Shown piece after piece: positions 18,597 to 38,225 of a stretch of 39,987 bases of DNA. Both the position numbers and the translations under genes were made by a program. Every line of letters begins with the position of its first letter. Within the stretch, counting starts at the first letter, position 1. The stretch covers positions 1 through 39,987 of the forward strand of contig NZ_BBAD01000025.1 in the NCBI RefSeq assembly GCF_001311075.1, read 5' to 3'. This DNA is from Secundilactobacillus similis DSM 23365 = JCM 2765 (GTDB lineage: Bacteria > Bacillota > Bacilli > Lactobacillales > Lactobacillaceae). The notes under the pieces are model-generated. The model made no database searches. It was given only the letters and a program-made list of their open reading frames with translations, and was not told where the DNA came from.

Positions 18597-18616
18597 GGCA
18601 ACAGAACTTAATTTAA

Positions 18617-18750
18617 ATTAACTAGGGGCGCAATTTGCTGAGACGGTGTCGAACCGAACCCTTTGAACCTGTGAGCTAACCCTCGCGTAGGAAAGTTAAT
18701 GTGACTTGCTAACTAACTGCCGACTGGGGATGACTCCGGTCGGCTTTTTT
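18617..18750 (+). ncRNA. TPP riboswitch (THI element) with terminator
   Basis: The conserved segments are present in order: AGGGGCGC, GCTGAGA, GAACCCTTTGAACCTG and GCGTAGGAA. P1 is closed by TTAACT with AGTTAA (18618-18623 and 18694-18699). A terminator stem GCCGACTGG/CCGGTCGGC with a T6 run follows (18719-18750), so thiamine pyrophosphate should stop transcription before tenA. Confidence 0.93.
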
Positions 18751-19430: not shown

Positions 19431-19431
19431 A

Positions 19432-19675
19432 GCGTGAAAAAATCGGTTAAAGTGTGGCGTATAAGGGCGCCCAAGCAATATCAGCCGGTCCTTGACTGAT
19501 ATTGCTTGGGCGCCCTTATACATAACACTTTGATTTTTTTCACGCGTTTCGGCGTGGTGGCCTGAAAATACAATCGTTGACAAACTTCACCAAGGTAACT
19601 AATCGCCAAGAAATCAAAGCCAAATCAGAGCCGAAACCAACGCTGCCAGAAAGCACGTCGCCAGTACCACAAAGT
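19432..19675 (+). repeat. Stop-codon hairpin element A with conserved tail
   Basis: The nested hairpin spans 19432-19545. The outer stem is GCGTGAAAAAATC with GATTTTTTTCACGC, the middle stem AAAGTGT with ACACTTT, and the inner stem is 26 perfect bp (19459-19484 with 19496-19521) around an 11-nt loop. The tail starts GTTTCGGCGTGGTGGCC, continues with GTTGACAAACTTCAC and GCCGAAACCAACG, and ends near GTCGCCAGTACC. The T7 run can act as a terminator for tenA. Confidence 0.85.
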
Positions 19676-19794
19676 GGGGTGCTAAAACGCACCTATCCAT
19701 AACACACTATCAGAACGTTGTCGAAAAGCACGGTCACAATCAATCTAAAGCCGCTAACCTCAATCTCGTTCAACGCTAACTTTTCCCCAGCCCC

Positions 19795-19823
19795 TTGCAC
19801 AACCCCCACCACACCAGTACAAT
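19795..19823 (+). promoter_or_regulatory. Promoter of the GNAT gene
   Basis: TTGCAC (19795-19800), 17 bp, TACAAT (19818-19823), 25 nt before the start codon. The stretch 19676-19794 shows nothing else I can identify. Confidence 0.65.
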
Positions 19824-19848
19824 AACTCAAAAGCGATAACGAAAGCAG

Positions 19849-20334
19849 ATGGAAATAATGGAAATTCGAGAAATCACCCCACAAGACGACGCCCAAATGG
19901 CGCACATCCTGCGAACTTGTCTGGAACAGCTTCACCTCAACCTCCCGCACACGGCCTACTACGATCCGTTCGTCGACCACTTAAGCGAATGGTACGCCAA
20001 AACTCCGGCTGCCAAATACTTCGTGGCCCTAGCGGATGACGGTCGGGTAGTCGGTGGCTGCGGCGTTGGCCCCATTGCACCAGAAGAAGGCATTGCCGAG
20101 TTGCAGAAACTCTACGTTGATCCTGAATACCGACACCACGGTACGGCAACGCAACTCTTACCACCGTGCTTTGAATTTGCCAAACAGCATTATCAAAAGC
20201 TCTATCTGGAGACCTTTGATACGATGTTGGCGGCCAATCAGTTGTACCTGAAAGTGGGCTTTGAACAGCTCGACCAACCGTTACCGCAATCAGAACACGG
20301 GGCATGTAACGTTTGGTATTTGATGAATCTTTGA
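19849..20334 (+). CDS. GNAT-family N-acetyltransferase
   Basis: This 161-residue acetyltransferase has the acetyl-CoA pyrophosphate loop RHHGTATQLL preceded by AELQKLYVDPEY, and a C-terminal NQLYLKVGFEQL. The acceptor is unknown. The ATG at 19849 has only a weak ribosome site (AAAGCAG), and a second in-frame ATG at 19858 is possible. It is monocistronic, with its own promoter. Confidence 0.85.
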   Translation: MEIMEIREITPQDDAQMAHILRTCLEQLHLNLPHTAYYDPFVDHLSEWYAKTPAAKYFVALADDGRVVGGCGVGPIAPEEGIAELQKLYVDPEYRHHGTATQLLPPCFEFAKQHYQKLYLETFDTMLAANQLYLKVGFEQLDQPLPQSEHGACNVWYLMNL

Positions 20335-20412
20335 AATCGAGGGAAGCGTTGCTAGTCGTGAGTTAGGGTAGCGACGTCAGGTGAGTATTTTTAACAAAAC
20401 TGAAAATTAAAT

Positions 20413-20441
20413 TTGACAACTGCTCATAATCAGACTATATT
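20413..20441 (+). promoter_or_regulatory. Promoter of the methionine synthase T-box unit
   Basis: A perfect TTGACA (20413-20418), 17 bp, TATATT (20436-20441). It is surrounded by AT-rich inverted repeats with TTTGAC/GTCAAA half-sites. Confidence 0.8.
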
Positions 20442-20447
20442 TGTCAT

Positions 20448-20722
20448 TAAATTTTAATTCGTCAAATTAAAAACTTTGAAGAGAAGAGCGTCAGTTGCGC
20501 GTCTACAGAGAACTCCGGTTGGTGGGAAGGAGTCGTCGTTACGCTGACAAAGATGAACTCTGAGTAGTTGGTGATTGGTCCGCTGGGCTGGTCATTCGGT
20601 GGCAACCGTTACGTGTTCGGGACGCACTTGCGTCTCGATGAGGTGCGAGTGATCGCACACAGTAAGGGTGGTACCGCGCATTGTCGCCCCTTGTCGTAGA
20701 GACAGGGGGCGGCTTTTTTTAT
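20448..20722 (+). ncRNA. T-box leader, specifier AUG (methionine)
   Basis: The T-box core is AGTAAGGGTGGTACCGCG. In stem I the specifier side reads AAAG-AUG-A (AUG at 20553-20555) opposite AAGAGC, closed by GAG/CUC and GUCAG/CUGAC stems. The terminator is CGCCCCTTGTC with GACAGGGGGCG (20685-20711) plus T7. The Met reading agrees with the downstream methionine synthase-like gene. Confidence 0.9.
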
Positions 20723-20764
20723 TCTTAGCAATCTTTGACGTTAACTTCCAGGAGGCAATTTAAC

Positions 20765-21894
20765 ATGACTGAAACTACTTTAATCCAATACCCAAACCGT
20801 TACGATGTCGTTGGTAGCTTATTACGACCAGCAGATTTAAAACAAGCCCACAAGGATTTAGCAGCCGGCAAAATCACTGCCGCTGAACTCACTGAGATTC
20901 AACGTAAAGAAACAAAGCGGATCGTTGAAAAACAAGTTGCGTTAGGTTTTAAGGACGTGACTGATGGTGAATTTAACCGGAGTTGGTGGCACTTAGACTT
21001 CTTATGGAACTTGACCGGGTCGATAAGTACGACTACCACAAGAGCTACAAGTTCAAGGGTGACACAACGCGGACCGATAACGTTGAAATTACTGGCAAAG
21101 TTGCCGCTAACCCGGATCACCCATTCTACGACAGCTTCAAGTACCTCCAAGCAATCACGCCAGCTGACGTGCGCGTCAAGCAAACCATTCCATCACCAAC
21201 GATGTTATTCCGTGACAACCGGAGTGACCGCTGGAACGAATTTTACGAAACTTGGGACGCTTACTTGGCAGACGTTGCGCAAGCTTACCACGATACGGCC
21301 TTGCACTTCTACGACCTCGGCTGTCGTTACCTTCAAATCGATGACACGACTTGGGCCTTCTTGATTAGCAAGTTAAACGAAACCAAAGACCAAGTGGACG
21401 AACATGCTAAATACGTGAAGTTAGCTGAAGATGGCGTTCGGGTCATCAACGCCTTCTTGAAGGATTTACCTGAAGACTTAACTGTCGCAACCCATATCTG
21501 TCGTGGGAACTTTAAGTCAACCTACCTGTTCTCTGGTAGTTACGATGACGTGGCTGATTATTTGGGTCAATTGAACTACGATGGCCTCTTCTTGGAATAC
21601 GATAACGAACGGGCCGGGAGCTTTGCGCCACTAGCACGGATCTGGAACAACGCGCCAAAGAAGCGGTTGGTACTGGGCTTGATTACTTCAAAATTCCCAG
21701 AATTAGAGGATAAGGACGCCGTGATTGCACGCATCCAAGACGCCGCTAAAGTTGTGCCACTTGAAAACTTGGCACTATCAACGCAGTGTGGGTTTGCGTC
21801 AACCGAAGAAGGTAACCAGTTAACGGAAGACCAACAATGGGCTAAGTTAACCTTGGTGAAGGAGATTGCCGAAACGGTTTGGCCAGAAGCCTAA
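20765..21894 (+). CDS. Cobalamin-independent methionine synthase-like protein (YxjG/YxjH family; frameshifted in this sequence)
   Basis: This single-domain relative of the MetE C-terminal half would be 376 residues once repaired. It resembles B. subtilis YxjG/YxjH, thought to methylate homocysteine. Zinc ligands of the family are visible: His and Cys in THICRGN and Cys in STQCGFAS. The frame breaks near 21006, where TTATGGAACTTGAC should be TTATGGGAACTTGAC (one G missing); after that VDKYDYHKSYKF continues. AGGAGG precedes the ATG at 20765. The gene is alone under a Met T-box, so methionine starvation should induce it. Confidence 0.9.
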
Positions 21895-21917
21895 CTATAC
21901 TATAGAAGATTAAATCG

Positions 21918-21973
21918 AGACGATTCCCGGTAAGTGTCAGTTAAACTGGACACGGAGGCGGGAATCGTCTTTA
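21918..21973 (+). terminator. Terminator of the methionine synthase-like gene
   Basis: A 12-bp stem AGACGATTCCCG/CGGGAATCGTCT encloses a second small stem (GTGTCA with GGACAC) and is followed by TTTATTTC. Confidence 0.75.
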
Positions 21974-21981
21974 TTTCGGCT

Positions 21982-22010
21982 TTGAGATTCCGCTAAATTT
22001 CCGGTAAGAT
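21982..22010 (+). promoter_or_regulatory. Promoter of the HAD phosphatase gene
   Basis: TTGAGA (21982-21987), 17 bp, TAAGAT (22005-22010), about 30 nt before the start codon. Confidence 0.55.
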
Positions 22011-22041
22011 AGATAGCAGACTAAAGAAGTGAGGGACTGAC

Positions 22042-22862
22042 ATGATTAAACTAGTTGCAGTGGATATGACGGGACGTTTTTGCGGGATGACCGGACGTAC
22101 GATAAGGACCGCTTTCTGCGGCTTTTCCGGGTGATGCAGGAAAAGCACATCCGGTTCGTCGCAGCCAGTGGCTCTCAGTACCAGCGGTTGCGGTATAAGT
22201 TTGCTGAAGTGGCGGATGAGATAGACTTTATCTCTCAAAATGGCGCCATCGTGCACAGTGGTAGCGAGCTGAAGCAGATCACCCCAATTTCGGATGACCA
22301 AGTTCACAGCGTGTTAAATCTGTTGCACCAACGGTTTGGCGGCAACGACATTAATCAAGAAGTGGTCGCCGGGTTAAACGGTACCTACGTGGGCACTGAT
22401 ATTTCACCAGAAGCGTTAAAGGTGGTCAAATACTACTACCGGCCCGTTGTGTCGGTACCGAGTCTCGCCAAGTTGGTGGGCCATTCAGTGACCGATCAAT
22501 TTACGAAAATCGCGATCAACTTTGCGGACCACGTTGATTTCCAAGCAGCCTCGTCAGCGTTAAGCCGTGCATTACCTGAAGCGTTATCAACAGAAACCTC
22601 AGGCTTTAACACGGAATTGATTGGTTCCAGCAAGGCTAACAAGCGCTCCGGTATCCGGGCGTTGCAGGAGGCCTACCAGATTGCGGATGACGAAGTGATG
22701 ACCTTCGGCGACAACGGCAATGACTTGAGCATGTTGACGCTGACCCCACACAGCTACGCCATGAAAAACGCCGCAGCAAACATCCAGCAGGCGGCTGGTC
22801 ATGTTACGACGGTTGATAATAATCATGATGGGGTGTTGGAGACGTTGGCGGAGGCGTTGTAG
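22042..22862 (+). CDS. Cof-type HAD-IIB sugar-phosphate phosphatase (frameshifted in this sequence)
   Basis: This is a haloacid-dehalogenase hydrolase of the Cof/YxeH type, 273 residues once repaired. Motif I should read VDMDGTFL; the sequence has GATATGACGGGACG where GATATGGACGGGACG is expected, so one G is missing after 22068. Motif II is FVAASGSQ, the Lys lies in the SSKANKRSGI segment, and motif IV is MTFGDNGNDLSML. The cap domain lies between. As written the product would start after motif I and lack the nucleophile Asp. The substrate is probably a sugar phosphate or FMN-like phosphoester. The TAG stop is followed after 7 nt by repeat element B. Confidence 0.9.
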
Positions 22863-22869
22863 GAGCAGA

Positions 22870-22982
22870 GCGTAAAAAAATGCGTTTAGACCCCAGAATA
22901 TAAGACAAAGAACCCCTAGATTCCTGGGCCTGGAATCTAGGGTTCTTTGTCTTATATGGCTGGGGTCTGCATTTTTTTGCGC
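22870..22982 (+). repeat. Stop-codon hairpin element B
   Basis: The outer stem is GCGTAAAAAAATGC with GCATTTTTTTGCGC (14 bp, one G-U on the plus strand), the middle stem AGACCCCAG with CTGGGGTCT (9 bp), and the inner stem is 26-27 bp (22898-22924 with 22932-22957, one bulged base) around a 7-nt loop. The T7 run can terminate transcription of the HAD gene. The tail after it matches the family only weakly. Confidence 0.85.
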
Positions 22983-23109
22983 GTTTAGGCTAGATAACAG
23001 TAGCGAGCTGATAGATGAGCGTTTCGGAATGTACAAGTTAAGAAGTTATTTCGATCCTTGTCGACGTCGCAACATTGCAGAAACCAGCCTCAAAGCACGA
23101 AAACAAACC

Positions 23110-23362
23110 ACCTAGAAATCAACAGCGTATTTGGCAACAGCGCTCTCCGGCAACAATTTTCGGCGCCATTTGTGACTGTGCTGGTTGGGGTTGCTTTAAG
23201 CGAGTGGTGGCTTGAATGCCGGTACGTTTTGGCCACCGCGCCGAAACGCGTTCCACGAAGCAAAGCGCTGCATGTAAGGTAAAACCCGCAAAAAGGCCCA
23301 AAAATCGGGCCTTTCTGCGGGTTCTACCTTACATTTCGCGCTTTAACCGCTTCGTTCCACGC
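23110..23362 (-). repeat. Stop-codon hairpin element C with conserved tail (minus strand)
   Basis: The hairpin spans 23248-23362 and follows osmC on the minus strand. The middle stem is AAAGCGC with GCGCTTT, and the inner stem is 28 bp (23272-23299 with 23307-23334). Two inner pairs are G-U on the minus strand but A-C mismatches on the plus strand. The outer stem pairs at its ends (GCTTCGT/ACGAAGC). There is no T run after the stems. The tail (minus strand) starts GTTTCGGCGCGGTGGCC. Confidence 0.8.
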
Positions 23363-23368
23363 TCTGCG

Positions 23369-23785
23369 CTACACAAACTCAATATCCATCGGAATCGACC
23401 CAACCAACGATTCATGCACCGTACACTTTCTCACCACTTCATTCAAGAAGAACTGGTGATCAGATGGGGTGAGGTTGGTTTCAGCCGTAATCTTGATGGT
23501 AATGTGGGTGACGCGTGAGCTACCATCCTGATACGTTGTGGTTTCGCCCGAGACGTCAACTTGAAACTTTTTGACAGTCAGGTGTTGATCGTCATTTTCG
23601 ATGTCACGAGCAGTAACGCTCATACAGCTCCCAACGGCGGCCAGCAAATATTGAACTGGGTTTGGCGCAGCGTCAGTCCCTTTGGCGACAACGGGTTCAT
23701 CTGCTAGAAATGTGTGACCACCGGTTCGGTTCATGACCTGAGTACCGATGGGGCGTAGTGTTGAATGGACAATGTATTTTCCCAT
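23369..23785 (-). CDS. OsmC/Ohr-family protein
   Basis: This 138-residue protein has the OsmC fold: NPVQYLLAAVGSCMSVTARD with the peroxidatic Cys54 and RKCTVHESL with the resolving Cys121. The family detoxifies organic or inorganic hydroperoxides. The ATG at 23785 has AGGAGG 10 nt upstream; the frame is open further but lacks a start signal. An extended -10 (TGGTACAAT on the minus strand) lies near 23822-23830. The TAG stop is followed after 6 nt by element C. Confidence 0.88.
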   Translation of the reverse strand: MGKYIVHSTLRPIGTQVMNRTGGHTFLADEPVVAKGTDAAPNPVQYLLAAVGSCMSVTARDIENDDQHLTVKKFQVDVSGETTTYQDGSSRVTHITIKITAETNLTPSDHQFFLNEVVRKCTVHESLVGSIPMDIEFV

Positions 23786-23888
23786 AAGTGTGGATCCTCC
23801 TCGTAACGCTATAATTGGTCTCATTGTACCATACCTATCCAGTAGTGATCGGGTTGGGCACTTGGCTGGTGGTGCGGGTGAGGGCACG

Positions 23889-23934
23889 AAAAAACGACTT
23901 TCAGGAGGGCTGAACCTTCTAAAAGTCGTTTTTT
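23889..23934. terminator. Terminator of the LysM-3D gene, possibly bidirectional
   Basis: AAAAAACGACTTT pairs with AAAGTCGTTTTTT, with an inner AGGAGG/CCTTCT extension, and is flanked by A and T runs on both sides. Confidence 0.8.
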
Positions 23935-23947
23935 AATGATTGTTGAA

Positions 23948-24559
23948 TTACCCAATAACCCGAACTTGGATCGATTGGCGACCAAATTGCATGGCTTCAG
24001 CGTTGGTCATTGAGATATCGAGTTGGTTAGGGTTGCTGTAAGCAAAAGTTCCAGTATCGTTAACCACTCGTTGTTCTGTATGACCGTCTTGGAACTTGAT
24101 TTCAAGTTCAGTCCCCTTAGGGAAACGGTCTAAAGCAGCGGCAACGCCAGTCCCGGTTGGGATTGAAGTGCCTTGGCCACCAGCGGCGACTTGAGGATCG
24201 TAAGCCGTTGCGACCATGGTTTGCCAGCCTGACGTTGTGGTGCTGTTCGTGTCAGTGCTGGTTTTAGTTGTCGTACTCGTTTCAGGGAGATCCTTGATTT
24301 GAGTCGATGCCGTTGATTTAGCGGCCTTCTTAACGATGAGGCGTTCATTTGGATGGATCGTTGCGCTAGTGCCAGAGAGGTGGTTAGCGTTCACGATTGC
24401 TTGAGTCGTGGTGTTGAATTGGTCTGCGATAGCCCAGAGACTGTCGCCAGACTTAACGGTATAGGTGGTAGCGGCGGAAGCTGAAGTGGTGGCAAAGCCC
24501 AAACCAATCAGGGTGCCGAACAGGATTAAACTACGAGTAACGAACGTTTTTTGTAACAT
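23948..24559 (-). CDS. Secreted LysM and 3D-domain cell-wall protein
   Basis: This 203-residue secreted protein has a signal peptide ending ATTSASA, one LysM peptidoglycan-binding repeat (TYTVKSGDSLWAIADQFN, about residues 32-77), a Thr/Ser-rich linker, and a C-terminal 3D/RlpA-like double-psi barrel (MVATAYDP, RVVNDTG and LDISM carry the Asp residues). Such proteins are Sps/Rpf-like or MltA-like wall enzymes. I choose the ATG at 24559; AAAGG is 15 nt away, which is long, and the TTG upstream sits too close to it. No promoter is clear in the AT-rich upstream region. Confidence 0.88.
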   Translation of the reverse strand: MLQKTFVTRSLILFGTLIGLGFATTSASAATTYTVKSGDSLWAIADQFNTTTQAIVNANHLSGTSATIHPNERLIVKKAAKSTASTQIKDLPETSTTTKTSTDTNSTTTSGWQTMVATAYDPQVAAGGQGTSIPTGTGVAAALDRFPKGTELEIKFQDGHTEQRVVNDTGTFAYSNPNQLDISMTNAEAMQFGRQSIQVRVIG

Positions 24560-24866
24560 CGAGTATGTTTCCAACCTTTCAAGATATCCGAGTAATATAG
24601 GATTTTATTTAATAGTATGATAAGAAAAGTATTAATATTTCTGACCACGCTCACTACTATAACATGCAAAAAGCGGATTTCAGTAACAAAACCGCTACAT
24701 TAATTTAGGACTCGTACATCTAACTGTAATATTGTCATATTCGTGTGATGTTATGAAATATGTAAGCGAAACATGACTAAAACATTACAACGAAATGAAA
24801 GCGAAGTTAGAAAATGAGAATTAACTCGACATATAAAACGGGAATTAAACAAAGATAAGCGAAAAA
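24560..24866. other. AT-rich non-coding region upstream of the LysM-3D gene
   Basis: About 300 bp without a supported gene. It contains several TGTAA/TGTTA-like half-sites and a short AGCGG-N15-CCGCT inverted repeat, but no promoter or riboswitch I can defend. Confidence 0.4.
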
Positions 24867-24867
24867 A

Positions 24868-24917
24868 CCGCCCTCATCGCGGAGGAGACACAGCTCCAAT
24901 TCCTGAATAAGGGCGGT
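24868..24917 (-). terminator. Terminator of the gene at 24947-25330
   Basis: AACCGCCCT pairs with AGGGCGGTT; on the minus strand the stem is followed by TTTTTTCGC. Confidence 0.8.
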
Positions 24918-24946
24918 TCAAATTGAAAATTAAGGTGACAGAATTG

Positions 24947-25330
24947 TTACAATAACGCTAAAATTGCCGTTTCATCGACACTAAGTTGGTCGAGCAAAAA
25001 CGCGTTTTCGGTGATCAATCCGAGTTCGGCACTTTGGTCGCGACGCCAGTCTTGCACCTGTTGCGGCGAGATAGGATGTAATGAGGTCGTGTGATCAAGG
25101 TGACAAGCTAAAAGGTAAAACGTTTGGTGATCCGCAGATGAGAGATTGGCGGTGATGAGTTGGTGATAAGCAGTTGCTAATTTTGCCGCAAGTGGATTTT
25201 CAAAGTGCTGATTTAATTGAGCAGCTTGTTTGGCAAACGTTTCTTGCTCAGTGGCCGTGAGTGCGTGATCGAGCATGGTTAATTTGGTGGTATTGTAAAA
25301 TGCTGCGAGTTCTGGGGTGAGTGACGACAT
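24947..25330 (-). CDS. Hypothetical helical protein
   Basis: This 127-residue protein belongs to no family I recognise. It appears all-helical and soluble, with no signal peptide, rich in Leu, Ala, Gln and His, and only one Cys. Its ATG has a weak AGTAGGT site. It has its own terminator and lies between the LysM-3D gene and the divergent exopolysaccharide operon. Confidence 0.7.
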   Translation of the reverse strand: MSSLTPELAAFYNTTKLTMLDHALTATEQETFAKQAAQLNQHFENPLAAKLATAYHQLITANLSSADHQTFYLLACHLDHTTSLHPISPQQVQDWRRDQSAELGLITENAFLLDQLSVDETAILALL

Positions 25331-25523
25331 TGAACGAACCTACTTTCTAAAGATAGTGTCAAACTATGTGAGGGCGGCTATAAAAAACGCCATTGTTTGC
25401 TTAGTAATCAAACAGTTTTTCTCACCATAATCGTAACAGATTTTTATGGCAGTTAGAAACTAAATTGGGTACAATCAAATCGGTATAGACAGCAGGTGCG
25501 CATGTACGAATGAGGTGAACGAA

Positions 25524-26921
25524 GTGAAGTGGCAATTAAATCGACTGAGGCCGTCACCGGTATGGGTTGCGGTGGTACTGAGTGCCGGTATTATTGGCTG
25601 TCAGATTTTATTTGCACCGGGATACGTTGATAATGGTGATTTTGCTGGTGTTTTACGATCAAATGGGCTTTATCAATTGTCGCACGCAACTCGGTTTAGC
25701 TGGCACTTTGGTGTGATGCAGTACTACAATCCGGCATTTTTGGTTCACGGGACGACCCAGTCGTTATTGATTCAAATCGCTATGTTACTGAGTCGGTTAA
25801 CTGGTCATTCCCATTTTTTTGATATTCGTTACCTTGGCTTTGTATACGGGCTGATCTATCTGGGTGGTATTGGTTTGTTGACGTGGGCAATTACGACGCC
25901 CAAACGAACCGTTAAGAACTACTTTTTAGCGGGACTGGTGGTCGTTGTTTTGGCGGATGCGGGCATCGTTCGTTATTTTAATTCCTTGTATCCGCAGGCG
26001 GCGACTTTGATTCTGATTGTTTACGTGGTGGCACTGGCGTTATTACTTATTAGATATAAAACTGCCAAACTATGGCTGGTATTTAGTTATTTTATGGCGG
26101 TGATCCTACTACTAATGGTTAATGAGGATGGCAACTTCTGGTGTGTTGGGGTCATCTTTATAACGCTGAGTCTCTGGTGTGGACCGATGCTAGAAAAAAG
26201 ACGCCCCTACCTCATTGCAGGCATCGGTTTAATTTTGATATTCAGCGTGATAACGGCGACTAACTTACCGAAGGATGCGCAGATGATGAATAAGTATCAG
26301 GCCTTTACTCAAGGTGCGTTAGTTGAAAATCAGCATCCGGAGCGGTATCCGGCCGCTAAACAGATCAACCCTCAGTTTACGTTAATGCGGGGGAACGCCT
26401 ATTATCCAACTGCATATGCGGCCCTTAAACCGAACGGGGCGTATACCCAACGTCACTTGCTTCAGCGCTACAACCTCTCTTGGGTGGTGACGTCGTATGT
26501 AAATAGTGGCACGCAATTTTCACGGTTGTTAAATGTGATGGCTAAAAACACACTGGTAATCCCACTCACAACGCAAGGATCAGTGATTAGCTTTGTCGGT
26601 TATAGCCAGTTGATGGCAACGTTTTATCCGAAAACGTATGGCTTCAACGTGCTATTAGCTTTGGTGATCCTTAGCGGTTACGCGGTGGGCTTAGTGACTG
26701 GTCTCCGACGTCATCAGTGGGCGGGGTTTAGTCGCTTCATGATGATGTTTGGGTTGTTAACGACGATTATATTGATTCCAATCGTAACAATCGTGAACTA
26801 TGGCTTAGCTAATCTGGCAGTGCACTTAGTTCCGGTCGTAGCCTGCCTAAATTTAAGTTTGATCTTGGTGGTAGCTGATTGCTGCCACCGGCGCATACTG
26901 CGCGGGACGGAGGATGAGTGA
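25524..26921 (+). CDS. Polytopic membrane protein of the exopolysaccharide operon
   Basis: This 465-residue protein has about ten predicted membrane helices and one larger outside loop (about residues 250-340). The early segment APGYVDNGDF and the overall layout recall GT-C-type membrane glycosyltransferases, but I see no motif that proves it. The start is GTG at 25524 with GAGG 8 nt upstream; an in-frame GTG at 25515 overlaps that site. It overlaps the next gene by 4 bp (GTGA). In operon order it matches the first gene of Listeria-like pss loci. Its role in polymer synthesis or modification is inferred from position. Confidence 0.75.
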   Translation: MKWQLNRLRPSPVWVAVVLSAGIIGCQILFAPGYVDNGDFAGVLRSNGLYQLSHATRFSWHFGVMQYYNPAFLVHGTTQSLLIQIAMLLSRLTGHSHFFDIRYLGFVYGLIYLGGIGLLTWAITTPKRTVKNYFLAGLVVVVLADAGIVRYFNSLYPQAATLILIVYVVALALLLIRYKTAKLWLVFSYFMAVILLLMVNEDGNFWCVGVIFITLSLWCGPMLEKRRPYLIAGIGLILIFSVITATNLPKDAQMMNKYQAFTQGALVENQHPERYPAAKQINPQFTLMRGNAYYPTAYAALKPNGAYTQRHLLQRYNLSWVVTSYVNSGTQFSRLLNVMAKNTLVIPLTTQGSVISFVGYSQLMATFYPKTYGFNVLLALVILSGYAVGLVTGLRRHQWAGFSRFMMMFGLLTTIILIPIVTIVNYGLANLAVHLVPVVACLNLSLILVVADCCHRRILRGTEDE

Positions 26922-28487: not shown

Positions 28488-28504
28488 AGGAGTACGTCAC
28501 GCTA

Positions 28505-29755: not shown

Positions 29756-31813
29756 AATACTGGGGCTGGTGGCCGTTGTTATCACTGGTTTGATGAGTTT
29801 CACGATGGTGGCGCGAGCCAAAGTTATACGCAACCGTTCCAAAATCAAACGACAACGTTAATGGGGAAATCAGTGCAGGCCAATATGTATTTTGTCAAAA
29901 TGGGGTACTGGCGCTTAAAAACGGCGACCCTTAACCTTAATTTTCAATTATCGCAATTAAGCGATCGCCAGACGTCGGACGTCACCGTAACGTTAAACGG
30001 TGTGGCAGTTGCTTCGTTTCGACCACAAGCAACGACTGGTCTTCAGACTAAGCAACTCAACATTCCAACGCGATTGATTGCGGGAACGAACAACCTTCAA
30101 GTTCGAGGGCAATTACTGAATCAGGTAGATAAACAACGAGTGACTGTTGCGCCAACACCAGCTAACTGGTTGACGATCGACCAACGGAGTAACGTGAACT
30201 TTGAGTACGATATTGCGCCGGCTGAATCAAAAATTAATTCTTTTTATGAACACTTTACTGGGACTGATACGATTGTTGACCAACAAGCGGTGATGGCGAT
30301 CCCTGACCAACCAAGTCAGGCCGAGCTAACCGCTAGCCTGTACGCTTTAGCGGGGCAATCGCGATTAATCACGACTGAAGATGAGCAGTTGCCCGTTGTT
30401 CAACTAACCGATTCAAAGGTAAAACGGGCGCATTATCAGATGTTGATTGCGCGCTATCATCGGCTACCTAAGGTGGTTCGAGAACGGATAGACGTGAAAA
30501 AGATGCAGGGTGGGGCACTGATCCAAACACTGAAACTTGAAGGTCACCAACTGTTAGTTGTGACTGCCAAAACGGATCAGCTGCTAATCAAAGCGGCCAA
30601 GTTTGTGGCCAATCAAGAACTGATGCGTGAAACCAGTCAAGCCGCTAAACGAGTTACCGGTGGCACACCGACGTATACGTCGACGCTTCAGTATGATGGC
30701 AGTTATCAACTAACGCCGACGGATGACCAATTAACGGGAACGGATCATCAGGAAAAGGCCTACTTTGTTAGTTTACCGACCGATCGAACGAACGCCAACG
30801 GATCGACGATTCATTTAAAATTTCGTTACTCGAAAAATCTGAATTTTAAACAATCATTAGTTACCATCAAGGTCAATGGGCAGCCAATCGGTAGTCGGCG
30901 GTTATCGGTTGCACGAGCGGACAACGATGAACTTACCGTTAAATTGCCACCTAATAAGTCGCTGAGCAATGCGTTTACGATCCAAGTGGGCTTTGATCTC
31001 ATGTTGCCTGGTCAGGATAACGATCGGGCAGTCAGTCAAACACCGTGGGCAACGGTTCTAAGTGGCTCACAAGCGTTTATTAAATCGCAACCCAACCGAG
31101 ATTTGTTGTTTGATAACTATCCCAGTACGTTCATTAAGAATCGAACCTTTAACCACGTGGTTGTAGTGGCACCACAGACAATGGCCCCGGCGGACTTTGC
31201 AACGTTGACGAACCTGTTTAATCTGATGGGAAATTTCGTTCAGCAAAACACCGGTACCATTCAGGTTTACCGGCATCAACCAAGCCGGGCAGTGTTAAAA
31301 ACGAGTAGCGTGATCGCGTTTGGGACGCCAGCTCAAAATAACTTGATCAAGCAGTTGAATTCACAGTTATACTTTCAATTTAACCGCCAGTTTACGGGTT
31401 TTCGTTCGAACGAAGTTAAGTCTAGAAAGTCGTTATGCTCAAAATGTGGGAACGGCCCAACTAATTCGCTCACCCTATAACGCGCAACGAGCGTTGTTAG
31501 TGGTAACGGCCTCGAAGCAACGGACGTTTATCGGGCCTCAACGCAGATCAACTTACAACGCAACGTCCAACAGTACCGGGATGCGGATGCCATTTTAGTA
31601 GATCGTGATAACCATCATTTTAGTTACCGATTTAAGAAGAATAAGGCGTTGCGTCAAACGATGCCGGTGCCTCGGCTTATTCAAACGCACTCGCAACTAC
31701 TGCTCTTTTTAGCAGCTGGCTTGGGGTGTTTCGTGATTTTAGGCGGTGCCGTCATCTTGATTTTACGAAAAAACGGCTTTTTGAAACGGGAGGCGAAGCA
31801 CGATGCACGCTGA
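29697..31813 (+). CDS. BcsB-like membrane-anchored polysaccharide co-synthase (three frameshifts in this sequence)
   Basis: This protein would be about 705 residues once repaired. It has a signal peptide (through FTMVARA), a long outside region with two jelly-roll-like halves (DVTVTLNGVAVASF; SLVTIKVNGQPIGSRRLSV), and one C-terminal membrane helix (LLLFLAAGLGCFVILGG). This is the BcsB layout that anchors the synthase and guides the glucan. Frames break near 29821 (AAAA read as AAA), 31427 (one extra A) and 31517 (one A missing). The start overlaps the GT2 gene; ATG 29697 and GTG 29703 are both possible. It overlaps the next gene by 11 bp. Confidence 0.8.
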
Positions 31814-32675
31814 TGATAGTCGGGCAAGTTTACTAGCGGATGTCGGTTTATTGCTGTTTTTAACGGTGATCAGCTTAACCGTCGTACTAGCTGGCATTAC
31901 GCATCAACTCTGGCTAAACGCCTGTTATATGGGCATCACGTTAGTCGTGATGTTGGTGACCTATTTCTTCGGCATCGTTCCAGGGTTACTGGGAAACTTA
32001 CTATTCGTTTTGGGGCAGACGGCGTTGATGGTAGCCGTAAATTGGCACCATGCCGGGCAATTACCATTGACGCTCAGCTTCTGGTTAGTTATTCCCGGCC
32101 TGTTATCCGGGACGCTCGCTATGATGATGAGCCAGCAACAGCAATTACAAGCGAATAACGACTTGTTAAGGACGCAGTTGGCAGAACGGGGTGCCTTTGA
32201 TTTACAAACTAATTTGCGAACAACGGTGGCTTATGTAGCGGACGCCCGGGTATTTATCGAAAATCACCGGCGGTTTCAGTTGCCGGTCACCATGGTCGTT
32301 TTTCGAATTCGCTATTACCATGAGTTGCAGCAACTGATCAGTGAACAGCAATTACAAACGCTGTTGACGATGACGTCCAACACGTTAACGACTGCAACGC
32401 GGGATAATGATGTGACCTATTATTTGGACAATCAGTTGCCAACATGGGGCACGATTCTGTATGCGGATGCTGAAACTGCGGCGGTTGCCATCGCTCGAAT
32501 CAAGCGGACTTTCGCAACGCAATTGCTAGCTGAAGCGGAGTTGAAGTCATTGGATACCGCACTCGTCTCAGGTGTCGCAAGTTGGAACCCGGAGACGATG
32601 GCCAATCCATATGATTTGATGAATGAAGGCGTTCGGGAGATGGAATTTGATGTGGGTCAGAGCGGGGAAAAATAG
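31803..32675 (+). CDS. Degenerate GGDEF membrane protein, predicted c-di-GMP receptor (PssE-like)
   Basis: This 290-residue protein has four membrane helices (about 12-32, 36-57, 58-80, 86-109), a short coiled linker (110-130) and a GGDEF-fold domain. The catalytic GGDEF is replaced by DNQLP (209-213), so cyclase activity is not expected. Arg200-Asp-Asn-Asp203 lies exactly five residues upstream, matching the inhibitory RxxD c-di-GMP site. This is the pattern of c-di-GMP receptors such as Listeria PssE. As the last gene of the operon it probably activates the GT2 synthase when c-di-GMP is bound. Confidence 0.85.
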   Translation: MHADDSRASLLADVGLLLFLTVISLTVVLAGITHQLWLNACYMGITLVVMLVTYFFGIVPGLLGNLLFVLGQTALMVAVNWHHAGQLPLTLSFWLVIPGLLSGTLAMMMSQQQQLQANNDLLRTQLAERGAFDLQTNLRTTVAYVADARVFIENHRRFQLPVTMVVFRIRYYHELQQLISEQQLQTLLTMTSNTLTTATRDNDVTYYLDNQLPTWGTILYADAETAAVAIARIKRTFATQLLAEAELKSLDTALVSGVASWNPETMANPYDLMNEGVREMEFDVGQSGEK

Positions 32676-32696
32676 TTCGATATCGGGATTTTAGGC

Positions 32697-32731
32697 AATA
32701 AAAAACGAAACTGAGTCATTCAGTTCCGTTT
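32697..32731 (-). terminator. Terminator of the NADH oxidase gene
   Basis: On the minus strand AAACGGAACTGA pairs with TCAGTTTCGTTT around a 5-nt loop and is followed by TTTTATTG. Confidence 0.8.
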
Positions 32732-32743
32732 AGTAAAGCAGGA

Positions 32744-34145
32744 TTAGTTTTCATCATCCAATTTTGAATAACCTGGGGCAGTGAAGCGCGCTTCATCGAA
32801 CCCGGCTTCCCGTTCTTGTTCCACGGCTAATTGGGCAACCATGTTGAGGTAGTTGAACGGCGAATCAAAGTTCGAGTTAAACAACATGTCCACCAGTGAG
32901 AGATCATCGATGGTGTTGTTATTTTGGATGGCTAGCGAAATGGTATTCGCTGATGGGTAATATCGTGATCACTCCGGAGTTGTGCGCCCAGAATCTTCCG
33001 GTTATCTCGGTTATAAATCAAGATAATCGTCAGTGGATCCGTATGTGGCAAGTATTCCGGTGCCAGGTGCCATCATAAACGACTTCTTGAGCGTTTAACC
33101 CATAGGCTTGGGCGTGTTCTAACGTTAACCCCGTCGTTGCAAGGGCGGTCCCGAATAGTTTAAGGGCTGAGGTTGCTTGGGTCCCCATGTAGGGGTACGT
33201 GTTGCCAAAGACGTTGTGGGCAACTAACATCGCCTGACGAATGGCGTTCGTTGCAAGTGGGGTGTAAGCTGCTTCGCCCGTTGGGTTAAAGCGAACCATG
33301 GCACAGTCACCAGCAGCGTAAATGTCAGGGTCAGAAGTCTGCATGTATTTGTTAGTCAACAGTGACCCGTGTTTTTCGATGTCAACTTGGCCCCGTAACA
33401 GCGAGGTGTTTGGAACGAAGCCGGTGCTGACGATGGCAACGTCGGTTTGGAAATCCCCTTGGTTGGTTTCAATCGTCAAAGTGCCGTCATCGTTACCCGT
33501 AAAGGCAGTTACCCGGTGCTCAAGGTGAACCGTAATATCGTGGTCACGCAGTAAATCAACGGCCCAAGATGACATCCGCTTGCCCACGTAGTTGTTCAAA
33601 ATTTGCCCACGTGATTGGAACATTTGCACGTCATGGCCCGTTTTAGACAGGCTTTCTGCAAATTCCGTGCCGGAGTAACCGGCCCCAATGATGGCGATAT
33701 GGTGGTATTTTTGAGCGGCGTTATAAATTGCTTGGGCTTGCTGATAGTTCTTGCACAGCAGAACCCGTGAATTATCGATCCCGAATAGTGGGGGAACGAC
33801 AACTGAAGAGCCAGTGGTCATGATCAACTTGTCGTAGGTATCAGTGAAGACTTCACCTGATTTCATATCGGCAACTTGAACGGTGTGTTCCTTGGCGTTA
33901 ACCTTTAACACATCGTGGTTATCGTGTACGGTTGCGCCCAATTCGCGCAGTTCATCTGGCGACGAGTAAAACATGTCCTCTAAACGCTTAACTTGCCCAT
34001 CAAGGTAAAGTGCGATCCCACAGGAAAGAAACGAAAAGTTATTATGCCGTTCGTAGATTGTCACGTCGGCGTCTGGGTGATTTTTTAAAATCTCAGTAGC
34101 TGCAATTGTCCCAGCGTGGGTGCAGCCAATAACGATAATTTTCAT
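32744..34145 (-). CDS. nox: NADH oxidase, FAD-dependent (two frameshifts in this sequence)
   Basis: This flavoprotein would be 467 residues once repaired. It reduces O2 with NADH and regenerates NAD+. The FAD motif is IVIGCTHAGT, the redox-active Cys42 lies in NFSFLSCGIAL, the NAD motif is IAIIGAGYSGTEFAE, and the second FAD motif is DPDIYAAGDCA. Cys42 supports the water-forming Nox or CoA-disulfide reductase group. Bases are missing near 33066 (TGGCACCGG should be TGGGCACCGG) and near 32957; after these the C-terminus ISLAIQNN to TAPGYSKLDDEN is restored. AGGAG precedes the ATG. A PerR-like box lies in its promoter region. Confidence 0.9.
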
Positions 34146-34174
34146 GGTGTTGGCCTCTCCTAACTTAAAGCTTT

Positions 34175-34189
34175 TTAGAATGATTCTTA
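34175..34189. promoter_or_regulatory. PerR/Fur-family-like box upstream of nox
   Basis: TTAGAATGATTCTTA matches the PerR-type consensus TTAnAATnATTnTAA except at one position. It lies 30-44 nt upstream of the nox ATG. A minus-strand TTGACA at 34200-34205 lies just upstream of it. Confidence 0.55.
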
Positions 34190-34284
34190 GTTGCTTATGA
34201 TTGTCAAATAATTATACCTATATTCTACATCAATAATGATATAATTAACCTGTTATTTTAAATAAAATTCGGGGGAGCGTGCCA

Positions 34285-34944
34285 ATGTACCGATATTTTA
34301 TTCAACCACAGCTGAATAAATTTACGAATTCGTTGATCGGTTATGAGATGCTAATTCGTAAATCGGCTGATGACCGCTGGATCCTTCCCCAAAATTTTGC
34401 GTCAATTCCGTTGGATATTCAAGTTGACCTGTTAAAGCAGGTTGCTAATCGATTAGCCTTAAAAGTGGGTTCGGTTTCGTTTAATTTGAACCGAACGCAA
34501 TTTGTAAATCGTGATATGGCAGCGGCACTGATTGATGCCCAACACGCAATTTACCCGGTCACGTTAGTCGTTGAAGTGACCGAGGAAGAAAGTGATCAGG
34601 ACGTAACGATTGCGCAATTAAAGCAGTCGGCGGCCGAATACGAACAACACGGCATTCAGTTGAGCCTGGATGATGTTGGGACTGGTCGCAATGTGTATGA
34701 GAGTATAGAAGCGCTATTGCCCGATGCGAGTGAAATTAAAGTTGCCATGCAGAATTTTCGGCAGTCTGAGCGGACGACCGAGATTCCTGAGCAACTGCGT
34801 TATTGGCGAGACGTTGCGGCGAAACACCAATTGCGGCTAATTGTTGAAGGCACCGAAACAGCTGAAGATGATGCGTTACTGGATGAATTGGAGATTCCAC
34901 TACGTCAGGGTTACTACTACGGGAAGCCACATTTATTTAGCTAA
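34285..34944 (+). CDS. EAL-domain c-di-GMP phosphodiesterase
   Basis: This stand-alone EAL domain of 219 residues hydrolyses c-di-GMP to pGpG. Active-site residues appear complete: Glu21 (YEMLIR), Asn67 (SFNLNR), Glu97 (VVEVTE), Asp129-Asp130 (LDDVGTG), Lys152 (EIKVA), Glu188 (VEGTET) and Gln208 (QGYYYGKP). The EAL triplet reads EML and DDFGTG reads DDVGTG, both tolerated in active enzymes. I start at ATG 34285 because GGGGGAG is 8 nt upstream; GTG 34279 is too close to it. It is divergent from nox and 1.6 kb from the exopolysaccharide operon it may control. Confidence 0.9.
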   Translation: MYRYFIQPQLNKFTNSLIGYEMLIRKSADDRWILPQNFASIPLDIQVDLLKQVANRLALKVGSVSFNLNRTQFVNRDMAAALIDAQHAIYPVTLVVEVTEEESDQDVTIAQLKQSAAEYEQHGIQLSLDDVGTGRNVYESIEALLPDASEIKVAMQNFRQSERTTEIPEQLRYWRDVAAKHQLRLIVEGTETAEDDALLDELEIPLRQGYYYGKPHLFS

Positions 34945-34989
34945 CGGTCGATTTAAGGGGATTAACGTTGTTGATTGGGGAACAGCATT

Positions 34990-35033
34990 AAAAAAAGCAC
35001 CTGAACCAATGAGCTGGTTTGGGTGCTTTTTTT
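34990..35033 (+). terminator. Terminator of the EAL gene
   Basis: AAAGCACCtgAACCA pairs with TGGTTtgGGTGCTTT, followed by TTTT. The A and T runs make it potentially bidirectional. Confidence 0.85.
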
Positions 35034-35104
35034 GACTGAAACTGTGTGGTGATATACCTATTCTGTACTGTACAAGCAAAATACTGTTTTAAGGATATTG
35101 AGTG

Positions 35105-35327
35105 GAATTGGCGACGTGCATTGCTTTCAGCGCCACTTTGGCTTTTAGTTGGCAATTATCGGTACCAGTGTGAAGCTTGCGGACGTAACTGTTTTTAGGC
35201 TTCTGCGCCGAAATGAGCTCCGCAAAGCAAAGACTTGCACATAAGGCCCCGCCAACACAAACCCCAAAAACCGGGGTTTATGTTGGCGGGGCCTTATGCT
35301 CCAGTCTTTAAGCGCTTTGCTTCGCTC
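35105..35327 (-). repeat. Stop-codon hairpin element D with conserved tail (minus strand)
   Basis: The hairpin spans 35215-35327 and starts 1 nt after the permease TAG. The middle stem is AAAGACT with AGTCTTT, and the inner stem is 25 bp (35241-35265 with 35273-35297) with one U-G pair on the minus strand. The outer stem pairs as GCAAAGC/GCTTTGC and GAGC/GCTC. No T run follows. The tail (35105-35214, minus strand) contains ATTTCGGCGCAGAAGCCTAAAA and ends near GCACGTCGCCA. Confidence 0.8.
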
Positions 35328-35328
35328 T

Positions 35329-36685
35329 CTAGTCCACCTTCACCTTCCCATGAAACTTAACGAAGTACAACACCGTCATCAGGGCTAAGAAGACGACCCC
35401 GACGATAATTGAAATTCTGGTTTCTGGGTTGAAGAACATGAAGATCAACGTTAGCAATAAGAAGGCCAACGTGAGGTAGTTTGAGTATGGTGAAAATGGC
35501 ATCTTGAACGGATGCTGGTCCATCTTGGCTTTGTGTTGCTTACGGAACTCGATTTGACTGATCAAAATCACGAACCATGGCACCATACCGGGAAGGACAC
35601 TTGAACTGTAAACCATGACGAAAATATTGTCGGCACCCTTGTACACGTATGGCAGAACGAAGTCGAGGACCACGCCCAAGAAGATCCCGAAGGAAATGGC
35701 GATAACCGAGTAGAAAGGAACACCATGACGGTTCAGCTTTAAGAACCGCTTTGGTAATTGACCGTTGTTAGCTAACGTAAATGACATCCGGCTAGCACTG
35801 TAGATCCCGGAGTTCGAACCGGAAAGGGCAGCAGTGATCACCACGAAGTTAATGATTGAAGCTGCGGCAGTGATCCCAATCTTAGCGAAGGTTTCCACGA
35901 ATGGTGAGCCAACGTTGTTGAGTTGGTTCCATGGTAGATACTTAAAATTACGAAGATGGCGCCGATGTAGAAAATCAAGATTCGGAAGACCGTTGAGCGA
36001 ATCGCTTTGACCAACGTATCTTGAGGGTTTTCTGCTTCACCAGCAGTGACCCCAATCAGTTCGATCCCTTGGTAGGAAGCCAACACGATTGAAAGGGCGA
36101 AGATAAAGCCCTTGAAACCACCGGTAAAGAAGCCGTGGGTCCACATGTTGGAAATACCGATTGGGTGGAAGCCGTTACCGATCCCGAAGACGATCAGGCC
36201 AAGGCCAACAACGATCATTAAAATAATCGTGACCACCTTGATCAAGGCAAACCAGAATTCCAGTTCCCCAAACATCTTAACGGAAATCAGGTTGGCTAAA
36301 CACAGGAAGGTGATGGCAACGATTCCGGGAATCCAGGCTGGTAATCCTGGCCACCAGAACTCGAAGTACCCCCCAATCGCAATCATTTCACTCATGCCCA
36401 CGACCACGAACTGGAAGATATTACTCCAGGCGGTGAGGTAGCCCGCCAACGGGTGAATATATTCGTCGCAAACTTGGAAAATGAGCCGGTGTCTGGGTCA
36501 ACGTAAAGCATTTCACCCAAAGCACGCATAATTAAATATAAAAAGATCCCCGCGATTGCGTAGGCAATCAGCACAGAGGGGCCCGTCCACTTAATGGTTG
36601 ACGTCGAGCCCATAAACAGGCCGACCCCAATCGTTCCCCCTAATGCAATCATTTGCATCTGGCGGGCGCTTAGTTTTCGTTTCAT
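35329..36685 (-). CDS. Amino-acid permease, APC superfamily (two frameshifts in this sequence)
   Basis: This 12-helix proton-driven amino-acid transporter would be 452 residues once repaired. The N-terminal signature is [18 protein letters not shown], followed by a [11 protein letters not shown] loop, [15 protein letters not shown] and a [11 protein letters not shown] segment typical of the AAT family. Bases are missing near 36459 (AATTATATT read as AATATATT) and near 35930 (TACCCATGG read as TACCATGG). The start at 36685 has AAAGGGA 8 nt upstream. The substrate is uncertain. The TAG stop abuts repeat element D. Confidence 0.9.
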
Positions 36686-36764
36686 AAGTCTAATCCCTTT
36701 CATGACCAAATAAGTTCAAAACTGACGTAAGTTATGTAGCCCATCGATGGATGAGGTCCACAAA

Positions 36765-36770
36765 ATTATA
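36765..36770 (-). promoter_or_regulatory. Putative -10 of the permease promoter with flanking palindromes
   Basis: The minus strand has TATAAT here. GTTAT-g-ATAAC overlaps just upstream and TAGTG-t-CACTA lies about 20 bp further, both possible operator sites. No consensus -35 is seen. The rest of 36771-36989 shows nothing else. Confidence 0.4.
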
Positions 36771-36989
36771 TGTTATGATAACGATAAATAGTGACACTAC
36801 CCCCATCATTATTTATTAATATCGTATGAGAACATGCTACACGAAAAACGGTGGGAGCGCAAGTTACTGTCGGCAATGAAAACGAGTGGTTTCGGTACAG
36901 TCGTCTGAAAACAAGCAGGCCGTACAATGACCTTAGATAAGTTGACGGTAAGAACTGAAAAATTGACTGAGCTTACATGAATTTGAGAA

Positions 36990-37018
36990 TTGAAACGGAC
37001 ATTTTTCAATAATATGAC
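36990..37018 (+). promoter_or_regulatory. Promoter of corA
   Basis: TTGAAA (36990-36995), 17 bp, TATGAC (37013-37018), 21 nt before the start codon. Confidence 0.5.
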
Positions 37019-37039
37019 GATTAAAAAGGACTGATTTGA

Positions 37040-37978
37040 ATGATGACAACGCACCAGCTCTGGCAAGACTTAACCTGGCTGTCGATTGATGAACCAACGG
37101 ATGCGGACTTACAAAAGTTACGAGAAGACCACCAGATTTCTGCTAAATACCTCTCGTACATGAAAGATTCCCGGGAACGGGCCCGATTTGACTATGACGC
37201 TCAGCAACAGTGCGGCCTATTGATTTACCGGTCGATCAACCGTGAGGAACGGGCGGCGGGGCAAACGAATTACTATGATACGGTGCCACTCTGTTTTATT
37301 TTTCGGGGCAAGACGCTGATCACGGTGACGCATCGCAAGAACCGGTATGTGACGGGTGTTTTGAAGCAAATCGTAACCGAACTTCAGGAACGACAAATTG
37401 AAGATAGTCTCTTTTTGTTGGTTTTTCGGTTGCTGTTTCAACTCAATGAAGACTATTTAGATCGAATTGACGATATGAGCAAGATTCGTGAAAGCTTGGA
37501 ACACTATGGTAAGCGACCCAGCAATCGTCAAATTGCGCAGCTATCAGAGTTGGATAAGCGGCTAGTGTATTTGAGAACGGCCGCTAATAACAACGTCATC
37601 GCGATTCAGCAGTTACAGGTGATGTCGGATGCGGATGACGACCCGCTCCAAATCTCAAAGGCGGAGATGCAGAACTTAGTTGACCTCCAAATTGAGGTCG
37701 AACAGAGTCGAGAAATGGCTAACATCGCAGCTGAGATCGTGGAGCGAACCACAAGTAGCTACAACAACTTGCTGGATAACAGTTTGAACAACACGATGCG
37801 GATCATGACGGTGTGGTCACTGGCATTGGCGGTGCCACCAATCGTTTCTGGTTTTTGGGGCATGAACATGAAGCTCCCGCTGACGGGTGAGCCGTGGGCG
37901 TGGGAGCTGTCGATTGGGTTGTCCATTGTGCCGATTGTGGGGTTGTTGTGGTATTTGATTAGGCATCGAGATTTGTAG
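37040..37978 (+). CDS. corA: CorA-family divalent cation (Mg2+) transporter
   Basis: This 312-residue channel has a large cytoplasmic N-terminal domain with long helices and two C-terminal membrane helices. The selectivity motif Gly-Met-Asn is at 274-276 in GFWGMNMKLPL; CorA usually has YGMNF, so both flanking residues differ. The Asp/Glu-rich acidic residues near DADDDP may bind regulatory Mg2+. AAAGGA lies 9 nt before the ATG. It is monocistronic, and its TAG stop is followed after 1 nt by repeat element E. Confidence 0.9.
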   Translation: MMTTHQLWQDLTWLSIDEPTDADLQKLREDHQISAKYLSYMKDSRERARFDYDAQQQCGLLIYRSINREERAAGQTNYYDTVPLCFIFRGKTLITVTHRKNRYVTGVLKQIVTELQERQIEDSLFLLVFRLLFQLNEDYLDRIDDMSKIRESLEHYGKRPSNRQIAQLSELDKRLVYLRTAANNNVIAIQQLQVMSDADDDPLQISKAEMQNLVDLQIEVEQSREMANIAAEIVERTTSSYNNLLDNSLNNTMRIMTVWSLALAVPPIVSGFWGMNMKLPLTGEPWAWELSIGLSIVPIVGLLWYLIRHRDL

Positions 37979-37979
37979 A

Positions 37980-38225
37980 GCGCAAAGAAAAGCGGTTAGG
38001 GAGTGGAGCGTAAGGGCGGCAAAGTCATACTGGCTGGGTTTTGGCCAGTATGACTTTGCCGCCCTTACGTGCAACTCCCTGCTTTTCTTTGCGCATTTCG
38101 GCGTGGTGGCCTAAAAGCACTAGTGTTGACAAACTTCACAACAAAACCGATTATCCGGAAAGGCGAATCCCACACCGAGCCGAAACAAACGTAGTAGCAA
38201 AGAACATCGCCGGTACCACTCAATC
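37980..38225 (+). repeat. Stop-codon hairpin element E with conserved tail
   Basis: The hairpin spans 37980-38094. The outer stem is GCGCAAAGAAAAGC with GCTTTTCTTTGCGC (14 perfect bp), the middle stem AGGGAGT with ACTCCCT, and the inner stem is 26 perfect bp (38009-38034 with 38044-38069). The tail ATTTCGGCGTGGTGGCC, GTTGACAAACTTCAC, GAGCCGAAACAAACG, ATCGCCGGTACCAC aligns closely with that of element A. Confidence 0.87.

Follow-up and report, generated by a model that had tools for sequence, protein, structure and literature searches.

In Streptococcus pneumoniae, the BOX elements are interspersed repeats whose ends are paired in the fold, and 36 BOX copies encode the stop codon of a gene with no strong evidence of truncation (PMC3049150). 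A second repeat of the same species, the hairpin SPRITE, is enriched at the 3' ends of coding sequences and consists of a duplex of 18 bp with a U-rich tract behind it, a terminator-like arrangement (PMC3049150). The GTAG-REPs are high-copy palindromes lying between unidirectional or convergent genes; the TAG at the repeat end supplies stop codons and G-T pairs occur in the stems (PMC3733652). Here we describe a family that is REP/BOX-like in the broad sense: its copies are numerous, scattered and able to fold, and mostly lie between genes, close to gene ends. It was recognised from five hairpins, A to E, in a stretch of 39,987 nucleotides of Secundilactobacillus similis DSM 23365 = JCM 2765 (contig NZ_BBAD01000025.1; the whole stretch is called the window), which are members of a large genome-wide repeat family in lactobacilli. 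The copies share a covarying fold that is conserved on one strand, dock at gene ends and show species-specific turnover at reused positions. From these observations we infer, with a probability of roughly 0.6, a non-coding, non-autonomous mobile structured repeat of the REP/BOX kind that acts in mRNA 3' ends.

The EFAR elements of Enterococcus faecalis are palindromic, about 170 bp long, and contain two stem-loops. They are named in PMC3733652, and clusters of stem-loops have been tabulated in Lactobacillus johnsonii (3) and E. faecalis (7) (PMC2267715). The present family might be related to the L. johnsonii clusters. BOX and the present family are both interspersed chromosomal repeats with paired ends in Lactobacillales; compared by description only, BOX is modular (boxA, boxB and boxC) whereas the present family is one continuous three-tier hairpin with covarying arms. 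The likeness to REPs and GTAG-REPs lies in the stop-supplying TAG, the placement between genes and the G-T pairs in the stems (PMC3733652).

Copy number and anatomy of the hairpin

The pattern shared by the 5' halves, AGAG..CGnTTA..TAAG, was used to scan the genome of the window (G000; 3.45 Mb in 176 contigs). It gave 155 matches (93 forward, 62 reverse), some elements being matched twice, against 3 matches (2 forward, 1 reverse) of the reversed control pattern in the same genome. From the matches listed, together with the window and two extra stretches, 89 distinct copies were extracted, of which 84 are used in the counts below. Those left out are four copies cut at a contig start and L063, a complete copy in which the TAAG pair is not formed (G·U:A·C 3:0; not docked). 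In the four cut copies (L038, L039, L050 and L068, of the 89) the contig start falls inside the hairpin, and palindromes of this family may be break points of the draft assembly.

An earlier note on the window had described five hairpins of 113-115 nt that share outer and linker parts and an architecture, with inner arms unrelated between copies. The hairpins are present at the coordinates and on the strands then given. Their folding energies lie between -73.8 and -91 kcal/mol and their z-scores between -13.1 and -15.7 relative to dinucleotide shuffles, none of 200 shuffles folding equally well, and the AGAG, CGnTTA and TAAG parts are common to all five. A consensus built from 43 diverse copies (<80% similarity, picked out of the 84) comprises four helices with 40 pairs in all: a foot of 4 bp, an outer stem, a middle stem and a long inner stem. 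The core is about 125 nt long, with an outer stem of about 7-8 bp, a one-sided GGTTA bulge, a middle stem of about 7 bp and an inner stem of 25-30 bp, a length found in 83 of the 84 copies. Purine-rich 3x3 internal loops (GGA/GGA-like) were seen by eye in many copies, including those of other genera. The conserved letters are AGAG, the bulge, TAAG/CTTA and the GTTTCGGC flank.

The shared architecture was confirmed by covariation. Pairing is intact in 97.3% of the 1713 pair cells of the 43 copies, compared with 66.9% after shuffling and 38-52% with slid partners; 32 of the 40 consensus pairs show changes on both sides, and the covariation score is 0.835 against 0.232 when shuffled. The inner arms do vary between copies, but the view that they are wholly unrelated is rejected: genome-wide they group into subfamilies that differ by paired substitutions.

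In about half of the copies a tail comes after the hairpin and contains another inverted repeat, TTTCGGCGC..GGCGCCGAAA. GCCGAAA, the mirror of TTTCGGCGC, is present at +90..130 in 43/84 copies and in 0/84 in one upstream 40-nt control stretch, and is often (28/84) followed by CGTCGCCA. A further 3' half of a hairpin lies 178-209 nt downstream in 16/84 copies, its 5' half being absent by pattern; this is a relic or a 5'-truncated second unit. Rows of partial copies at a spacing of 329-501 nt are mostly convergent elements rather than relics.

The fold is conserved on one strand

Imperfect pairs of the inner arms were counted under a folding rule that forbids G·U and is hence strand-neutral. Read in the element's own direction, the 84 copies gave a G·U:A·C ratio of 83:2, which the opposite-strand reading inverts, and a separate alignment of the arms gave 89:6. 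In other genomes 129 matches to a covariance model of the family were obtained, and 89 were used after second-strand matches, doubly fetched copies and those of <65 bits had been dropped. Their ratio was 116:6, made up of 61:3 (49 Secundilactobacillus copies), 20:0 (16 copies fetched via orthologous genes) and 35:3 (24 copies from other genera). A fold of equal importance on both DNA strands predicts equal numbers of G·T and A·C and is rejected by the values of 83:2 and 116:6; since G·U far exceeds A·C, it is one strand that is conserved as a single strand. The maintained cruciform DNA that the earlier note had considered is disfavoured to the extent that it implies equal importance of both strands. 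The active form is therefore single-stranded and most likely RNA, with single-stranded DNA possibly also needed for copying; the G·U and A·C data alone do not separate the two.

Docking at gene ends

A copy was scored as docked if the end of an open reading frame (ORF) of 60 codons or more fell between -16 and +8 nt relative to the element start. By this test 51/84 copies are docked, compared with 3/84 when the hairpin's other end was used on the opposite strand and 7/84 at a position 320 nt downstream. Exact formation of the stop codon as T|AG is found in 21 copies of the 84. Docking is also seen in 27/49 further Secundilactobacillus copies and in 13/16 copies fetched via orthologous genes, the latter being a non-independent set. 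Rough ORF calls give a same-strand upstream gene for 61/84 copies (at a distance of >500 nt for three of them) and an opposite-strand one for 23/84; 31/84 copies lie between convergent and 8/84 between divergent genes. The earlier claim that the hairpins stand directly after a stop codon thus applies to most copies of this genome and not to all, as the 23 with an opposite-strand upstream gene illustrate.

In one copy (L033) the element, from position 1201, starts on the last base of a tRNA gene (1129-1201), which indicates that docking concerns gene ends and not only stop codons. Two minus-strand copies, L011 and L050, adjoin the start region of an opposite-strand gene, about 20 nt from the start by ORF calls, and have the identical junction TAGCC|AGAG. 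Protein C-termini are equally long with and without an element in the orthologues compared, so that in those orthologues there is no truncation.

The five elements of the window and their tails are as follows. The coordinates of the earlier note hold for the hairpins themselves, although the unit begins at AGAG, 3 nt earlier for A, B and E, and is often tailed.

18771-19430 (+): ORF whose stop TAG is made jointly with element A, as T|AG
19429..19555 (+): element A; AGAG, the three-tier hairpin, then GTTTCGGCG
19556..19670 (+): tail of A; TTGACAAACTTC, GCCGAAAC (second inverted-repeat arm), CACGTCGCCAGTACCAC
22867..22992 (+): element B; CCCCAG-type middle stem, 4 nt past the TAG of ORF 22080-22862; usual tail motifs not found on inspection by eye
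23238..23365 (-): element C; 3 nt past the TAG of ORF 23369-23887 (minus)
23157..23237 (-): tail of C; ends in the GGCGCCGAAA arm, mirror of TTTCGGCGC
35205..35330 (-): element D; T|AG fusion with the stop codon of ORF 35329-35898 (minus)
35091..35204 (-): tail of D; terminal CACGTCGCCAATTCCACTC
37977..38104 (+): element E; T|AG fusion with the stop codon of ORF 37040-37978
38105..38221 (+): tail of E; arm GAGCCGAAAC, end CATCGCCGGTACCACTC

The gene beside D (35329-36709, minus) appears as three overlapping ORFs in different frames, whereas the corresponding region of Secundilactobacillus paracollinoides aligns as a single stretch; this is possibly a broken gene or the result of sequence errors.

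Distribution and turnover between species

A covariance model of the family was run on 100 genomes and matched 36 of these (the window's own included), in 21 of 63 genera. Within Secundilactobacillus 13 of 15 genomes are rich in the element (at least 34 matches each) and two (G008, G014) are poor. Outside the Lactobacillaceae model matches are few and weak (G091, G102, G120, G126). At the level of the order, and beyond the 100-genome sample, one locus (L082 of G143) has a similar three-tier fold. Three other order-level loci (L099, L103, L105) are single, carry AGAG..AAGCGnTTA..TAAG and fold more loosely; they are possibly distant relatives from a different family of the order.

Fifteen gene ends were compared with S. 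paracollinoides (G006, probably strain DSM 15502): the five window ends and ten of 14 query genes for which an orthologous end was usable (L008, L019, L028 and L039 were dropped). An element is present at the same end in both species in 8/15 cases (A, C, D, L025, L026, L032, L035, L037), and the S. paracollinoides end is element-free in 7/15 (B, E, L005, L012, L027, L036, L041). In a further species (G010) an element is found at 4/8 usable orthologues; the model detects those at L012, L025 and L035, and the one at L036 was seen by eye. It might be expected that orthologous copies would be recognisable as vertical copies. This was rejected: elements at paired sites are on average 60.5% identical, compared with 62.6% over all 2100 cross-species pairs. 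Because copies at the same gene end resemble each other no more than randomly paired ones do, the positions are either older than the sequences or have been reused. The nearest neighbour of a copy lies within its own species for 25/25 S. paracollinoides and 83/84 G000 copies (samples of unequal size). Some shared sites (C, L025, L026) also have the element at a different distance from the stop codon in each species, and this speaks for repeated arrival rather than a single inherited insertion; replacement by conversion may be an alternative.

Two dispersed S. paracollinoides copies are 98% identical, and tandem copies are present. Head-to-tail arrays were observed at G002:C112:24360-24897 and G062:C1:1816456-1816737, in which the units recur about every 167 and 120-124 nt, respectively. 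The earlier note had argued against mobility on the ground that transposon copies would share their interior. That argument falls with the 98%-identical dispersed copies, the tandems and the same-species nearest neighbours; tandem copies, near-identical dispersed copies and species-specific clustering instead support ongoing copying.

These comparisons also bear on the possibility that the hairpins are host-maintained 3'-untranslated RNA structures of particular genes, kept by selection locus by locus while their sequence drifts, copying being incidental. The presence of an element in both species at 8/15 gene ends would agree with this, as would the behaviour of nearest-neighbour copies: among 56 copies with inner arms 83% identical on average, 182 pairs are double-changed and still paired, 48 changes are one-sided via G·U, and 47 differences leave a pair broken in one or both copies. 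Against selection per locus stand the conspecific nearest neighbours of each of the 25 S. paracollinoides copies sampled, the 7/15 orthologous ends lacking an element there, the differing stop offsets at shared sites, and the 23/84 copies whose upstream gene runs on the other strand. We regard it as unlikely.

Relation to transcription termination

The element-free ends have a bearing on whether the hairpins are ordinary or duplicated intrinsic terminators. At 8/12 such ends, from S. paracollinoides and G010 and with three of the 12 belonging to one gene, an ordinary terminator is found, as is the case by eye for the orthologue at the osmC locus, and 15/84 hairpins pass a scan for intrinsic terminators. 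The remaining 69/84 fail it. In 54/84 copies no run of T in the outer 3' arm exceeds 2-3, and most copies have no U-tract; in this they differ from SPRITE, which is likewise a hairpin repeat of gene 3' ends (PMC3049150). A terminator-like site follows within 400 nt downstream in 14/58 sense copies, compared with 1.0 in mononucleotide shuffles, and an existing terminator precedes 4/12 of the sense copies that lie 16-200 nt past the stop. Plain terminators are accordingly rejected on the score of 15/84, and the explanation by ordinary or duplicated terminators as a whole is very improbable. Termination alone is insufficient to account for the hairpins, as the earlier note had concluded from fewer copies.

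Coupled change of the two arms

Double transversions cannot pass through a G·U intermediate. They occupy 154 cells, against 115 for double transitions, in 95 copy pairs of 80-90% identity. In 16 copy pairs of 88-98% identity there are 34 cells with compensated double changes (18 transitions, 16 transversions), together with 27 one-sided changes via G·U, 17 one-sided changes and 1 double change that break the pair, and 40 changes at unpaired positions. Copy pairs share members in these identity-range comparisons, so that the changes are not independent events. The coupling could result from strong selection with fast compensation or from template switching between the arms. A speculative extension, which we consider quite unlikely, is a self-templating mobile hairpin: a single-stranded copy would propagate, have each arm rewritten from the other by fold-back copying and be aimed at gene 3' ends. 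If true, this would explain why the arms are free in sequence yet complementary, the concerted arm changes including transversions, and why the same stop codons are occupied in two species by copies unrelated to each other.

Searches for a known family and for a mover

The earlier note had pointed to a known, named repeat family as the finding that would overturn it, and none was found in Rfam or in titles and abstract starts of the literature. With Rfam release 15 at gathering score no element in the window was matched, the only match being a TPP riboswitch at 18614-18710, upstream of element A's ORF. At a relaxed threshold, ten loci gave only sub-threshold matches at elements. Judged by titles and abstract starts, no description of such a family in lactobacilli was found, which is not to say that none has been published.

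Several results weigh against a mobile repeat acting in mRNA 3' ends. Y1_Tnp (PF01797) had no match in 7/9 element-rich genomes (G006, G002, G010, G062, G034, G070, G055), with one match in G000 and four in G029, and the 3.4-kb locus of the G000 match contains no pattern match to the element. RVT_1 had no match in 15/18 genomes and one each in G000, G002 and G034. No mover was thus identified among Y1_Tnp and RVT_1, other transposases not having been searched. Plasmid and phage collections gave no match, a weak test given that the letters diverge. Flank alignment, in which a MITE would show itself by a target-site duplication, yielded neither a clean empty site nor such a duplication in 17 comparisons; in some of these both sides carry an element, and the flanks are too diverged. 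Docking is weaker in other genera (7/24 copies). Finally, the G·U excess is equally strong in copies antisense to the upstream gene (15:2 and 11:0), which makes it a property of the element and not only of the local mRNA. Selection through the local mRNA alone is rejected by these values.

The last point is what would be expected of a single-stranded DNA substrate for transposition, in which a recombinase reads the top-strand hairpin in the style of REP/RAYT or IS200/IS605 and any effect on RNA is a by-product. That the strand asymmetry holds whichever way the neighbouring gene points agrees with this, as does the retention of the fold in copies of other genera, and the element-formed stop codons recall the GTAG REPs (PMC3733652). 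The family does not, however, fall under the strict definition of a REP. REPs measure 20-40 bp, bear a GTAG or CGTC motif and are often transposase-associated (PMC3733652), whereas the hairpins are 113-115 nt long, with a core about three to six times the REP length. The unpaired GTAG is also absent: the bases before AGAG are unconserved (T in 45% at -35, G in 36% at -36) and no conserved G precedes the TAG. The absence of a match to a Y1 (RAYT-type) transposase in seven of the nine element-rich genomes further separates the two. A DNA substrate of this type is possible, if doubtful.

Proposed role and significance

In the mobile repeat that we favour, copies would spread through the chromosome and lodge at the 3' ends of genes, where the first AG of the element would often complete the stop codon of the upstream gene. 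In the arrangement with a same-strand upstream gene, assigned to 61/84 copies, the hairpin would then be transcribed into the 3' end of the mRNA, close behind the stop codon. A near-perfect duplex of 25-30 bp in this position would be a natural substrate of RNase III or a block to exonucleases, and the long duplex could thus either impede exonucleases or be cut by RNase III. Of the functions put forward in the earlier note, 3'-end protection or protein binding by the hairpin RNA may apply.

The family raises the question of how a repeat without a known mover locates gene ends so exactly. For some genes one species has an element where a second has an ordinary terminator, so that effects on the mRNA 3' end and on stability can be compared. 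Lactobacilli thereby offer a large natural series of 3'-end hairpins, with one architecture and many sequences per genome.

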